Source: Hydrogenophaga sp. (GTDB taxonomy: Bacteria > Pseudomonadota > Gammaproteobacteria > Burkholderiales > Burkholderiaceae_C). Taken from it: a stretch of 13,784 bases of DNA. Location of the stretch: positions 1 through 13,784 of the forward strand of contig JAABRN010000012.1 in the NCBI GenBank assembly GCA_011390855.1, read 5' to 3'. The translations under genes were made by a program, and so were the position numbers. Below are positions 4,583 through 8,177 of the stretch, piece by piece (positions within the stretch are counted from its first letter, which is position 1; the number at the start of each line of letters is the position of its first letter). The notes beneath the pieces were generated by a model. That model was not told the origin of the DNA. It saw only the letters and a list, made by a program, of their open reading frames with translations, and did no database searches.

Positions 4583-5926
4583 CTAGATGATGCCTTGCGC
4601 CAGCATCGCATCAGCCACTTTCACAAACCCGGCGATGTTGGCACCGTCCACGTAGCTGACTTTGCCATCTGCGCGGCGCCCATGCGTCAAACAGGCTTCG
4701 TGGATACCGACCATGATGCTGTGCAGGCGCTGATCCACTTCGTCTCTTGGCCAGCTGATTCGCATGGCGTTCTGGCTCATTTCCAGGCCCGATGTGGCCA
4801 CTCCCCCGGCGTTGCTCGCCTTGCCCGGTGCAAACAACACACCGGCATCTTCGAAGCGCTGCGCCGCCGCCATGGACGTGGGCATGTTGGCGCCTTCGGC
4901 CACGCAGGTCACGCCGTTGCGTATGAGCGTGTTGGCATCTTCGACGTCGATTTCGTTCTGAGTGGCGCAGGGCAGGGCCACGTCCACCGGTACGCCCCAG
5001 GGCTTGACGCCTGCTTCAAAACGCGAACCGGTGCGCTCGGCGTATTCGCTGACGCGGCCGTACAGATGGTTTTTCACTTCCATCAGCTCGGCGAGCTTCT
5101 CAGGGGTGAAGCCTTCATCGTCGACGATGGTGCCGCTGGAGTCCGACACGGTGACCACCTTCGCGCCCAAGGCCATGGCTTTCTCTACCGCGTATTGCGC
5201 CACGTTGCCCGAACCGGAGATGCTCACGCGCAGCCCCTCGAAGGTCTTGCCTTGCTGCTTCAGCATCTGTTCTGCAAAGTACACCGTGCCGTAGCCAGTG
5301 GCTTCCGGGCGGATGAGGGACCCTCCAAAGCTCAGGCCCTTGCCGGTGAACACACAGTCGGCCCGGTTGCTGAGCTTTTTCATCATGCCGGCCATGTAGC
5401 CGACTTCACGTGCCCCCACGCCAATGTCACCGGCTGGCACATCGGTGTCTGCGCCCACATGGCGGAACAGTTCGGTCATCAGGGCCTGGCAGAAACGCAT
5501 CACTTCACCCGGGCTCTTGCCCTTGGGGTCGAAGTCCGAGCCGCCTTTGCCACCGCCCATGGGCAGTGTGGTCAACGCATTCTTGAAGGTCTGCTCGAAC
5601 GCCAGAAACTTCAGGATGGAGAGGTTCACCGAAGGATGGAACCGCATCCCTCCCTTGAAAGGTCCGATGGCCGAGCTGTGCTGGATACGGAAGCCGCGGT
5701 TCACCTGCACGTCGCCGTGGTCATTCACCCAGGCAATGCGGAACATGACCACACGCTCAGGTTCGATCAAGCGGTCTAGCAGGCCGTGTTCAGCGTAGCG
5801 CGGATGTGTGGCGATGAAGGGCCAGATGCTTTCCATGACTTCCGCCACCGCCTGGCTGAATTCGGGTTGCCCTGGGTTTCGGGCGGCGACGTGTTCGAGG
5901 AAATGGTGGACCGAGGTGTATTTCAT
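4583..5926 (-). CDS. gdhA: NADP-specific glutamate dehydrogenase
   Basis: GdhA makes glutamate from 2-oxoglutarate, ammonium and NADPH, the low-affinity route of ammonium assimilation in the cytoplasm. The 447-residue product has exactly the length of the E. coli enzyme and matches it nearly throughout: RVVMFRIAW, SSAIGPFKGGMRFHPSVN, the substrate/catalytic-lysine stretch PMGGGKGGSDFDPKGKS, DVPAGDIGVG, the Rossmann loop SGSGNVAQYA, ALPCATQNE and the C-terminal ANIAGFVKVADAML. The ATG at 5926 gives the family N-terminus (MKYTSVHHFLEHV). An in-frame ATG at 5953 would add nine residues, but it falls inside a palindrome and close to the probable transcription start. No Shine-Dalgarno is obvious at either. 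The upstream region carries several NtrC-like sites, consistent with nitrogen control. Confidence 0.97.
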   Translation of the reverse strand: MKYTSVHHFLEHVAARNPGQPEFSQAVAEVMESIWPFIATHPRYAEHGLLDRLIEPERVVMFRIAWVNDHGDVQVNRGFRIQHSSAIGPFKGGMRFHPSVNLSILKFLAFEQTFKNALTTLPMGGGKGGSDFDPKGKSPGEVMRFCQALMTELFRHVGADTDVPAGDIGVGAREVGYMAGMMKKLSNRADCVFTGKGLSFGGSLIRPEATGYGTVYFAEQMLKQQGKTFEGLRVSISGSGNVAQYAVEKAMALGAKVVTVSDSSGTIVDDEGFTPEKLAELMEVKNHLYGRVSEYAERTGSRFEAGVKPWGVPVDVALPCATQNEIDVEDANTLIRNGVTCVAEGANMPTSMAAAQRFEDAGVLFAPGKASNAGGVATSGLEMSQNAMRISWPRDEVDQRLHSIMVGIHEACLTHGRRADGKVSYVDGANIAGFVKVADAMLAQGII

Positions 5927-5929
5927 GAA

Positions 5930-5958
5930 ATTCAATGCATTGGGTTGGTGCATTGAAT
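5930..5958. promoter_or_regulatory. perfect 10-bp inverted repeat at the gdhA start
   Basis: ATTCAATGCA (5930-5939) and TGCATTGAAT (5949-5958) are perfect arms around a 9-nt spacer, ending 3 bp before the gdhA start codon. It shares its symmetry centre with NtrC-like site 1, so it is probably a protein operator; as RNA it could also form a weak AU-rich hairpin over the initiation region. Confidence 0.55.
5936..5952. promoter_or_regulatory. NtrC-like site 1, next to the gdhA start
   Basis: TGCATT-GGGTT-GGTGCA matches 10 of 12 fixed bases of the NtrC consensus TGCACC-N5-GGTGCA. Its centre (5944) is 18 bp upstream of the gdhA ATG and coincides with the centre of the 10-bp palindrome 5930-5958. 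Binding here would block the ribosome-binding/transcription-start area, which fits repression. The assignment is inferred from the motif only. Confidence 0.5.
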
Positions 5959-5962
5959 GATA
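5957..5962 (-). promoter_or_regulatory. candidate gdhA -10 box
   Basis: On the minus strand TATCAT matches TATAAT at 5/6. Transcription would start near 5950, inside NtrC-like site 1 and about 24 nt before the ATG at 5926. No convincing -35 is found at 16-18 bp spacing, so the promoter is either activator-dependent or wrongly placed here. Confidence 0.35.
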
Positions 5963-5990
5963 CGCAGCAGCCGTTCAGGAAAATGAAAAA

Positions 5991-6007
5991 TGCACCGATA
6001 TGGTGTT
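5991..6007. promoter_or_regulatory. NtrC-like site 2
   Basis: TGCACC-GATAT-GGTGTT matches 10/12 to the NtrC consensus, with a perfect left half. The centre at 5999 is 55 bp from site 1, close to five helical turns, and about 73 bp upstream of the gdhA ATG. Confidence 0.5.
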
Positions 6008-6032
6008 TTTCGGTTTCATGAGCGGCCAAGCT

Positions 6033-6049
6033 GTCACGAAAAAAGTGCA
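6033..6049. promoter_or_regulatory. NtrC-like site 3 (weak)
   Basis: GTCACG-AAAAA-AGTGCA matches 8/12. The spacing to site 2 is 42 bp, about four helical turns. Alone it would not be called; it is listed because of its position between sites 2 and 4. Confidence 0.25.
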
Positions 6050-6072
6050 AAAAAGGATTCTGGATGATGAAT

Positions 6073-6089
6073 TGCTTCGTATTGGTGCA
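6073..6089. promoter_or_regulatory. NtrC-like site 4
   Basis: TGCTTC-GTATT-GGTGCA matches 10/12 with a perfect right half. The centre at 6081 is about 155 bp upstream of the gdhA ATG and 40 bp from site 3. It lies in the intergenic space 40 bp after the mutL stop. Confidence 0.4.
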
Positions 6090-6128
6090 AACAAGCCCCA
6101 TGTAACGCGCTTTGGAGAACCCCTGTTT

Positions 6129-8090
6129 TCAGCGCCCTCGCAGGAACAGCGCGTCCAGTTCCTTCATGCTCACCTGCCGCCAGGTGGGTCGACCGTGGTT
6201 GCACTGGTCTGAACGCTCGGTGGTCTCCATCTGCCGCAACAGCGCGTTCATTTCTTCCAGCGTGAGTCGGCGGTTGGCCCGCACGGCTCCGTGGCAGGCC
6301 ATGGTGGCCAGCAACTCGTTACGGGCGCGCTGCACCACGGTGGAGGCGTCGTGCTGGCTCAATTCGGCCAGCACGCTGCGGGCGAGCTCCACCGGGTTGC
6401 CTTGTGAGAGGGTGGTGGGCACCGCACGCACCGCCAGCGTTTTCGGCGAGAACGGCACCACTTCCAGCCCCAGCATGGCCAGCACCACGGCGCTGTCTTC
6501 GGCGGTGGCCACCTCTTCAGGCGTGGCGGCGAAGGTGGCCGGGATCAGCAGCGGTTGGCTGGCGAGCTGTTCTTCGTCCATCTGCTGTTTGAGGCGCTCG
6601 TACACGATGCGCTCGTGTGCGGCATGCATGTCCACCACCACCAGGCCTTGGGCATTTTCTGCCAGGATGTAGACGCCCTGTAGCTGAGCGATGGCGCGTC
6701 CGAGTGGCCATTCGCCCTGTGGCAATGGGTGGGGCGGGGCTTCGGCAGGCTCAGCCCGAACGGCGTGATGAGGCGGGGCTGAGGGTTGTCCTGCTTCTGA
6801 AGGTAGAGGTCGTGGGCTTGCCCAGGCATCTGTTCGGGCTGGGCTGGTGGGTGCAGCAGAGGAGGCGCCACCCCACAGGGCCTCCAGGTCACTGACCCGG
6901 TGGCCGATCTCTGGCGCTCGGGGTGCAAATGCGAGCCCCGTCTGGTGGGAGGCAGGGGGCCATGCCGGTGCCGCTTCAGTCTCCGGAGCGGACGCCGGTT
7001 CTGCCTTGCCAGCCGAGCGAGGCACGGCCAACGCAGACTCTACAGCCCGGCGCACGGCCTGGTGCACTTCGCGGCTGTCTCGGAAGCGCACTTCGATCTT
7101 GGTCGGGTGCACGTTCACGTCCACTCGCGTCGGGTCGAGGGACACGAAGAGCGCGTACACCGGCTGGCGGTGGCCGTGCAGCACGTCCTCATAGGCACTG
7201 CGGGCCGCGTGCGTGATGACCTTGTCGCGCACGTAGCGCCCATTCACATAGGCGAACTGCCAGTCGTTGCGGGATCGGGCCGCATCGGGTATGCCAGCAA
7301 AGCCCCGGACTCGCAAGCGATGGCCGTTGCCGTCATCGGGTACCTCGAGCGGCCAGTCCACCGCGACAGCTTGCGCCACGAAGTCTTCGCCCAGCACGTC
7401 GGCCAGGCGCTGGCGCAAAGGGTCGGCATGGTCGCTGGCCACGGCGCGCCACTGGGCCACCAGCTTGCCTTCGTGCCAGATGGCAAAGCCCACGTCCGGG
7501 CGCGCCAGCGCGTGCCGGCGTACCGCCTCGATGCAGTGCGCAAGCTCGGTCGCGTCGGTTTTGAGAAACTTGCGCCGAGCGGGCGTTGCAAAAAAGAGTT
7601 CGCGCACTTCCACCGTGGTGCCGCGGTTGCGGGCGGTGGGTTGCAATTCGCCGCTGCGACCGTCCAGCAACCAGCCGTGAGATTCCTGCGAATCTTCCAC
7701 GCGCGTGAGCACAGACATTTCAGCGATCGAGCAGATGGCCGCAAGGGCCTCCCCCCGAAAACCCATGGTGTGCACCGACTCCAGATCGCTCAGGCTGGCA
7801 ATTTTGCTGGTGGCGTGGCGTTTCAATGCGGTGGGCAGTTCGCTGCGCAGAATGCCGCAGCCATCGTCTTCCACGCTGATGAGGCGAACCCCACCTGCCA
7901 GCAACCGCAGCGTGACCTGCCTGGCCCCCGCATCGAGCGCGTTGTCCACGAGCTCGCGCACCACCGAAGCGGGGCGTTCGACGACTTCACCTGCTGCAAT
8001 CTGGCTGATGAGTTCGTCCGGCAGTTCAAGGATCGGGGAGCGCGGCGCGGCGGGCGCAACCGGTGGTGTCTGGGGGGCGGTTTGAGTCAC
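6129..8090 (-). CDS. mutL: DNA mismatch repair protein MutL (endonuclease type)
   Basis: MutL links MutS mismatch recognition to strand incision. The N-terminal GHKL ATPase is complete: ELPDELISQIAAGEVVERPASVV (residues about 22-44), catalytic Glu46 in RELVDNALDAGA, VEDDGCGI, and RHATSKI...GFRGEALAAI. A Pro/Ala-rich linker (about residues 345-460) leads to the C-terminal dimerisation domain with DMHAAHERIVYE at 487-498, which fits the metal-binding endonuclease motif DQHA(X)2E(X)4E except for Gln-to-Met, plus ACHGAVRAN and CNHGRP. Betaproteobacteria generally lack MutH, so self-incision fits. The GTG at 8090 is chosen because it follows a TACAAT box by 6 nt and gives a short leader before ELPDELI; the frame stays open to 8174 without family resemblance. 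The product is 653 residues. The gene is divergent from the YqaA-like gene. Confidence 0.95.
   Translation of the reverse strand: MTQTAPQTPPVAPAAPRSPILELPDELISQIAAGEVVERPASVVRELVDNALDAGARQVTLRLLAGGVRLISVEDDGCGILRSELPTALKRHATSKIASLSDLESVHTMGFRGEALAAICSIAEMSVLTRVEDSQESHGWLLDGRSGELQPTARNRGTTVEVRELFFATPARRKFLKTDATELAHCIEAVRRHALARPDVGFAIWHEGKLVAQWRAVASDHADPLRQRLADVLGEDFVAQAVAVDWPLEVPDDGNGHRLRVRGFAGIPDAARSRNDWQFAYVNGRYVRDKVITHAARSAYEDVLHGHRQPVYALFVSLDPTRVDVNVHPTKIEVRFRDSREVHQAVRRAVESALAVPRSAGKAEPASAPETEAAPAWPPASHQTGLAFAPRAPEIGHRVSDLEALWGGASSAAPTSPARTDAWASPRPLPSEAGQPSAPPHHAVRAEPAEAPPHPLPQGEWPLGRAIAQLQGVYILAENAQGLVVVDMHAAHERIVYERLKQQMDEEQLASQPLLIPATFAATPEEVATAEDSAVVLAMLGLEVVPFSPKTLAVRAVPTTLSQGNPVELARSVLAELSQHDASTVVQRARNELLATMACHGAVRANRRLTLEEMNALLRQMETTERSDQCNHGRPTWRQVSMKELDALFLRGR
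6739..6763 (-). repeat. dispersed GTTCGGGCTGAGC-type palindromic repeat inside mutL
   Basis: On the minus strand these bases read CCGTTCGGGCTGAGCCTGCC followed by GAAGC. TTCGG and CCGAA form the outer stem and GGCT/AGCC the inner one. This matches, from memory, a short interspersed repeat (CGTTCGGGCTGAGC-TGTCGAAGC) found in many copies between genes of beta- and gammaproteobacteria. Here it lies in frame in the MutL linker and encodes about residues 443-451 (AVRAEPAEA). Confidence 0.55.
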
Positions 8091-8096
8091 CGGATC

Positions 8097-8102
8097 ATTG
8101 TA
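8097..8102 (-). promoter_or_regulatory. candidate mutL -10 box (leaderless arrangement)
   Basis: On the minus strand TACAAT (5/6 to TATAAT) ends 6 nt before the GTG at 8090. Transcription would begin at or next to the start codon. No Shine-Dalgarno and no good -35 are seen. Confidence 0.4.
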
Positions 8103-8172
8103 TGCAGTGACGGATAATCCAGGGTTTGGCTGAAGCCGGCCTGCCATCGGGGTGCGCCGTTCACGTCTGCAC

Positions 8173-8177
8173 AAGGA
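8173..8177 (+). promoter_or_regulatory. Shine-Dalgarno deciding the TTG start at 8185
   Basis: AAGGA lies 7 nt upstream of the TTG at 8185. The in-frame GTG at 8152 has no such site, so the rare TTG is preferred. Confidence 0.65.

Follow-up and report, generated by a model that had tools for sequence, protein, structure and literature searches.

The closest described precedent is found in Pseudomonas putida where, according to the available part of PMC5648810, gdhA is directly repressed by NtrC (Hervas, Canosa, Santero 2010, Mol Microbiol 78:305), this repression being independent of NtrC phosphorylation; the original prediction had referred to such repression in Pseudomonas. The accessible text of PMC5072197 also describes gdhA as actively repressed under nitrogen limitation. 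A reconstruction of the NtrC regulon in Proteobacteria names three groups in which gdhA is a target (Moraxellaceae, Rhodobacterales and deltaproteobacteria); in the part of PMC5343134 available, betaproteobacteria are not among them. For the betaproteobacterium Herbaspirillum seropedicae, derepression of zwf in an ntrC mutant is mentioned in the same part of PMC5648810. Among the matches listed by literature searches, whose titles and abstract openings were covered and for which most of the subscription literature lay outside coverage, there was no report of NtrC control of a betaproteobacterial gdhA; the accessible portions of the literature on Acidovorax citrulli, Burkholderia cenocepacia, Azoarcus BH72 and Burkholderia sp. 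M6-3, and of a review on diazotrophs, contained no gdhA-NtrC data, Azoarcus BH72 being said there to be without GDH.

We have analysed a stretch of 13,784 nucleotides from Hydrogenophaga sp. (hereafter the window) for which an array of NtrC-like sites upstream of gdhA had been predicted. That observation is correct, and the locus likely represents a known kind of control in a new case; it has several sites in a conserved layout and, in addition, one odd dyad.

An array of NtrC-like sites between mutL and gdhA

Given a gdhA start at 5926, the gap separating it from mutL is 202 bp long (5927-6128) and, since both genes point the same way, it serves gdhA (Table 1). The protein begins MKYTSVHHF from this ATG and would gain nine residues from the in-frame ATG at 5953; the family score in the table was taken on the ORF from 5953. 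An in-frame ATG 27 bases 5' of the gdhA ATG is present both in the window and in the sister genome G047.

Table 1. Coordinates of genes, sites and other elements around the mutL-gdhA gap (window positions)
Feature	Position	Strand	Remarks
gdhA, NADP-specific glutamate dehydrogenase	4583..5926	-	447 aa from ATG 5926; NF006929, 750 bits (cut-off 536)
Perfect dyad containing site 1	5930..5958	.	29 bp, 10-bp arms, 9-bp spacer; arms co-vary across the genus
NtrC-like site 1, TGCACCAACCCAATGCA (gdhA strand)	5936..5952	-	10/12; matrix 9.2 bits; centre -18 from ATG; over the predicted transcription start
Predicted -10 element TATCAT	5957..5962	-	CATAAT in most of 28 aligned rows
NtrC-like site 2, AACACCATATCGGTGCA	5991..6007	-	10/12; matrix 12.3 bits, the window's best; centre -73
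Weak NtrC-like site	6033..6049	-	8/12; matrix 8.6 bits; centre -115; sister G047 lacks it
NtrC-like site 3, TGCACCAATACGAAGCA	6073..6089	-	10/12; matrix 6.2 bits; centre -155; 11/12 site here in sister
mutL	6129..8174	-	NF000949, 814 bits (cut-off 750)

Sites were scored against TGCACC-N5-GGTGCA, i.e. 12 fixed bases in 17 bp. A pattern scan returned the three predicted 10/12 sites with the coordinates and match counts originally given, and the count of the 8/12 site, read from the sequence, was also right. The three are the only places in the window with at most two mismatches, and all lie inside the gap; every gdhA site of the window thus has at least two mismatches, the best reaching 10/12 and none being perfect. 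Over the whole window such matches are not enriched (3 seen, 2.0 expected; three or more in 59 of 200 shuffles), and 5000 shuffles of the gap that kept dinucleotides gave a mean of 0.014 sites and a maximum of 2, so that the enrichment is a local one. The prediction had also held that three exact TGCACC/GGTGCA hexamers in about 150 bp exceed chance, and indeed only 0.1% of 5000 gap shuffles contained as many. With a matrix built from the genus (see below), the window contains 11 places that score at least 6 bits, the gap accounting for 4, and the 8/12 site (8.6) ranks above the outermost 10/12 site at 6073 (6.2). A terminator-like match on the + strand at 5992-6006 was rejected as a feature of its own: it is site 2 itself, antisense to gdhA, with a chance expectation of 0.6.

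Conservation in Hydrogenophaga

The matrix was derived solely from glnK-amtB upstream regions of the genus and contains no gdhA sequence. One site with a perfect GCAC-N7-GTGC core was taken per locus: 30 loci were fetched, 27 had a recognised glnK start and 24 had the core, the three without it including that of G047. Two loci (L164, L174) were left out, their sites duplicating the letters of others, which gave 22 sites and 21 distinct sequences, another repeated pair being kept; in L163 and L173 the second-listed site was taken, as fitting the T-rich form.

A search of 60 Hydrogenophaga genomes, that of the window included, yielded 38 upstream regions of gdhA orthologues, the window's among them. 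At 10 bits or more the matrix finds a site in 23 of these 38 regions (22/37 when the window is removed) and none in the other 15, and the control promoters of the same genomes give 0/24 for gltA and 0/25 for recA, partial genes having been excluded before counting (24 of 27 gltA rows and 25 of 28 recA rows used). At 8 bits or more 29 of the 38 regions are positive, and one recA promoter also reaches 8. When each region was compared with its own shuffles, 23 of 30 genus members had P<0.05, where about 1.5 would be expected. For the cultured strain Hydrogenophaga sp. IBVHS1 the highest-scoring gdhA site has 9.0 bits. The half-site GCACCA is present in 30 of the 38 regions against 7.3 expected, other 6-mers, some of them probably belonging to the end of mutL, ranking beside or above it.

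In the sister genome G047, whose GdhA is 94% identical, the three exact hexamers are all preserved (at -164, -81 and -26). Identity between window and sister is 41/51 at site bases and 75/151 outside them (P 0.0001), and it is still 25/34 against 75/151 when site 1 is removed (P 0.013). The orthologue comparison thus came out in favour of the original prediction both in the matrix scan at 10 bits and in the hexamers, 3 of 3 being retained by the sister.

Two other arrangements were noticed upstream of gdhA in the genus. In G016 (locus L102), a 22-base unit is repeated three times in tandem ahead of the gene and the NtrC-like site is absent, the best score being -1.8. In a subclade comprising L104, L113 and L118, the halves TGGTGCG and GCACCA face outwards and make up an inverted repeat whose arms are 12-14 bp long.

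Layout of the sites and the predicted promoter

Across the genus, the centres of matches of at least 5 bits cluster at -14 to -18 (26 matches), -69 to -71 (18), -88 to -91 (6) and -129 to -134 (14) from the ATG, and 27 of the 38 regions, window included, have such a match centred at -14 to -28. Measured from the site nearest the start, the distances of the others follow a period near 10.5 bp (P 0.003, 0.006 and 0.03 as the threshold is made stricter), in a test for which every distinct distance counts as an independent one and common ancestry is left out of account. The centre spacings of 55, 42 and 40 bp given in the prediction are correct for the window. Its further statement that they lie near whole 10.5-bp turns stands for 42 and 40, but not for the first step, since 55 bp corresponds to 5.24 turns and is therefore a quarter turn off.

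From its conservation, the CATAAT (TATCAT here) adjoining site 1 is predicted to be a -10 element, which would place the start of transcription inside that site, near 5949-5950. A strict scan for sigma-70 promoters called none at gdhA, probably for want of a good -35.

A dyad over the start-proximal site

The symmetry around site 1 extends beyond the NtrC-like motif (Table 1), and an equivalent ATGC-N11-GCA dyad stands in the same place in 28 of the 38 genus regions, window included. Three of its inner pairs are invariant and a fourth hardly varies; the next three pairs co-vary (C-G/A-T, T-A/C-G and G-C/T-A/C-G). For these three variable pairs, 71 of 84 cells are Watson-Crick against a shuffle mean of 47.4, a count equalled in none of 20 000 shuffles, relatedness being ignored in this calculation. 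Reduced to 14 distinct arm combinations, of which 9 are imperfect, the arms agree at 39 of 56 positions, where the null mean is 30.1 (P 0.001). On a gdhA tree holding 30 of the 38 regions, the symmetric variants TTCA/TGAA, TCTC/GAGA, TTTC/GAAA and TGCC/GGCA are found in separate places, and therefore about four or five joint changes of the arms, as read off the tree, are likely. To look for a regulon sharing the long dyad, 14 genomes were searched for its commonest form, CATGCAC-N7-GAGCATG, with at most one mismatch, and 20 places came up. The exact form occurs in three of these genomes (G024, G025 and G050), each time at gdhA and nowhere else; the coordinates of the one-mismatch places G003:C16, G012:C77, G029:C1:1154854 and G054:C1 also put them at gdhA. 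GGAG, a ribosome-binding sequence, stands about 9-10 bases 5' of the gdhA ATG in 17 of the 28 rows that have the dyad; the window and G047 do not have it.

A sequence-specific protein alone would not predict co-variation of the arms; an RNA hairpin would. Site 1 might then be part of a hairpin in the gdhA leader rather than a protein site, only the upstream sites concerning NtrC. Besides the co-variation, this explanation can call on the folding of the full 44-nt stretch as RNA, at -9.4 kcal/mol (z -3.3), and on the position of GGAG, at the loop end in the rows that have it. However, with the conserved -10 element the transcript would begin inside the left arm, and the transcript so shortened folds at 0 kcal/mol. 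In addition, G-U pairs are nearly absent (1 of the 22 non-Watson-Crick cells), G004, which is sister to the clade of the window on the gdhA tree, has a 12.2-bit NtrC-like site without the dyad, and no Rfam family is reached at gathering score, the search of 5500-6500 giving one sub-threshold match on the opposite strand (E 0.35, 21 bits where 60 are required). We hold the hairpin to be improbable. There is a somewhat better, still rather doubtful, case for the start-site copy being more than an NtrC site: either a second constraint would act on the symmetry itself, through DNA structure or through a leader RNA joining NtrC control to translation, or one arm would repeatedly be copied to the other by template switching, which is the mutational alternative for the co-variation.

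Likeness to the core targets of NtrC

Both in matrix scans and by comparison of individual sites, the gdhA sites resemble the NtrC sites of glnK-amtB and glnA in the same genus. The perfect GCAC-N7-GTGC core precedes glnK-amtB in 24 of 27 loci, many of which also have a sigma-54-like element, and the motif is found before glnA in both genomes examined, that of the window and G047. In the genome of the window, an 11/12 site (TGCACTTAAATGGTGCA) is located upstream of glnA, and the sigma-54-like element TTTGGCACAGATACTGCTT comes after it. The 5.8-Mb genome of G047 contains a single perfect TGCACC-N5-GGTGCA, which lies upstream of glnA. With at most one mismatch, G047 has 37 places, one of them at gdhA, and 15 for the pattern read backwards; the window's own assembly has 17, none at gdhA, and 1 for the backwards pattern. 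As a separate observation, the glnA upstream regions of the own genome (L184, 1480-1760) and of G047 (L179, 1100-1520) both have a sigma-54-like element, several half-sites of NtrC type, and GCGCCATAAT, which resembles the gdhA -10.

NtrC itself scored over the curated cut-off in all 31 relatives searched; ntrC was not found in the window's own assembly (2.39 Mb in 553 contigs), which is 55% complete. The NtrC of G047 contains GAFTGA, and its C-terminal end reads as what we take to be a Fis-type helix-turn-helix. Just 3' of the G047 ntrC, in L136 at about 930-1100, a stretch is present three times in tandem and encodes a repeated peptide (ORF 246-1160).

Conservation outside the genus

The named loci used for comparison were 80, mostly betaproteobacterial, their gene starts being the starts of tblastn matches, taken unreviewed and shifted in ten loci. 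One locus (L078) was dropped for having only 6 bases upstream, which left 79; two of these are from Hydrogenophaga (L010, the contig of G029, and L050, very likely that of G008) and were removed, leaving 77 loci outside the genus and, minus one short locus, 76 regions for the 6-mer count.

A site of at least 10 bits is present in 18 of the 77 regions and in 21 of 2505 tiles, mostly coding, taken elsewhere in the named loci; the other 59 loci have no such site. Against shuffles, 25 of the 79 loci have P<0.05 where about 4 would be expected, and in the 76 regions GCACCA is the top 6-mer by z-score (29 regions, 8.0 expected). Lineages reaching 10 bits include Herminiimonas, Ramlibacter, Zoogloea, Pseudoduganella, Thauera, Aromatoleum, Comamonas, Delftia and Simplicispira and, outside the betaproteobacteria, Tolumonas. 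None of the named loci of Nitrosomonas, Aeromonas, Alcaligenes and Acinetobacter does so, the best Acinetobacter score being 9.4 (L068); the glnK-derived matrix may be unsuited to Moraxellaceae.

For 50 named genomes, a subset of 78 listed loci picked with site scores already known, presence of a gdhA site agrees only weakly with presence of NtrC: at 10 bits 17 of 42 genomes with NtrC and 1 of 8 without it are positive (P 0.13), and at 6 bits the figures are 26 of 42 and 2 of 8 (P 0.06).

Those two genomes without detected NtrC (L066 with 12.8 bits, L044 with 9.7) bring up the possibility that another regulator, reading the GCACCA half-site, binds the gdhA array. L066 is a metagenome draft. 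The poor second half that accompanies one strong GCACCA in many gdhA copies also speaks for such a regulator. It has to be set against the origin of the matrix, which comes purely from glnK-amtB, and against the location of the sister's one perfect consensus at glnA, both being core NtrC targets in the available part of PMC5343134. We consider another regulator to be an unlikely reading, slightly more so than the hairpin.

Activation or repression

A further possibility is that NtrC does bind the array and activates gdhA through a sigma-54 promoter. NtrC is classically an activator, the glnA and many of the glnK promoters of the genus join the motif with sigma-54-like elements, and the window itself contains one two-mismatch sigma-54-like match at -174, with a spacing one base short. 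But a search for canonical TGGCAC-N5-TTGCA (at most two mismatches, GG and GC kept) found no element in any of the 38 gdhA regions, whereas the same search was positive for 17 of 30 amtB-upstream stretches, 3 of the 30 being too short to score, and for the glnA promoter of G047. Activation is therefore disfavoured, and the conserved CATAAT/TATCAT with a site lying over the predicted start would rather suit a repressed sigma-70 promoter; we regard activation as very unlikely. Least credible of all is that the array is meaningless, made by chance from hexamers common in the genome: TGCACC is over-represented window-wide (26 seen, 16 expected) and 10/12 matches, as said, are not enriched across the window, but the clustering in the gap, the conservation in place, the control promoters and the orthologue comparison speak against it.

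Proposed control and its meaning

What we consider quite probable is that the gap is an operator of gdhA made of NtrC dimer sites, two to four in number, through which NtrC would directly repress a sigma-70 promoter under nitrogen limitation. The view that the array confers NtrC-type control like that of Pseudomonas is supported by the conservation in place, by the control promoters and by the likeness to the sites of glnA and glnK. When nitrogen is limiting, NtrC would bind over the predicted transcription start, with a centre at about +7 of it, and at further sites near -49 and -131, a weak one lying near -91. Across the genus these sites tend to share one face of the helix; in the window, with centres at -18, -73, -115 and -155 from the ATG, only the step nearest the gene departs from this, the other two coming close to whole turns. 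Once bound, the dimers, which may be joined to one another, would deny sigma-70 RNA polymerase access to the gdhA promoter. Cooperation or looping between dimers on one face is suggested by the spacing only, and the direction of control, repression, is our inference as well. With the promoter so kept shut, scarce ammonium would as a consequence be taken up via GS-GOGAT and not by the low-affinity glutamate dehydrogenase.

The cell would thus probably switch its ammonium-using glutamate dehydrogenase off when nitrogen is scarce. If this is true, glutamate dehydrogenase would be under NtrC control not only in Pseudomonas, where this is known, and in the few groups for which it has been predicted, but also in a large genus of betaproteobacteria and probably in many further Burkholderiales and Rhodocyclales. 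The choice between GDH and GS-GOGAT would then be made by the same switch that activates the scavenging of ammonium. Sites so conserved in position would also form a good natural series for studying repression of a sigma-70 promoter by an enhancer-binding protein.

Comparison with known systems

The glnA promoter of the same genome, as an NtrC-activated promoter which we presume to be of the glnAp2 type, has several upstream copies of the motif found at gdhA; it differs in having a sigma-54-like element, none of canonical spacing being present at gdhA. P. putida offers the same gene, the same regulator (here by motif) and, as predicted here, low gdhA under nitrogen limitation, whereas the present case concerns betaproteobacteria and up to four sites conserved as a set, one of them over the predicted start. 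With zwf of H. seropedicae the locus would share the lowering by NtrC of a carbon/NADPH gene in a betaproteobacterium, but the gene is another one, and for gdhA the available part of PMC5648810 cites control by NtrC from P. putida only. Finally, the regulon reconstruction, in the part of PMC5343134 available, agrees with our results in having gdhA as a target in some groups and glnA, glnK and amtB as core targets, and differs in its taxonomic range, to which the present evidence adds Hydrogenophaga and, less certainly, other Burkholderiales and Rhodocyclales.
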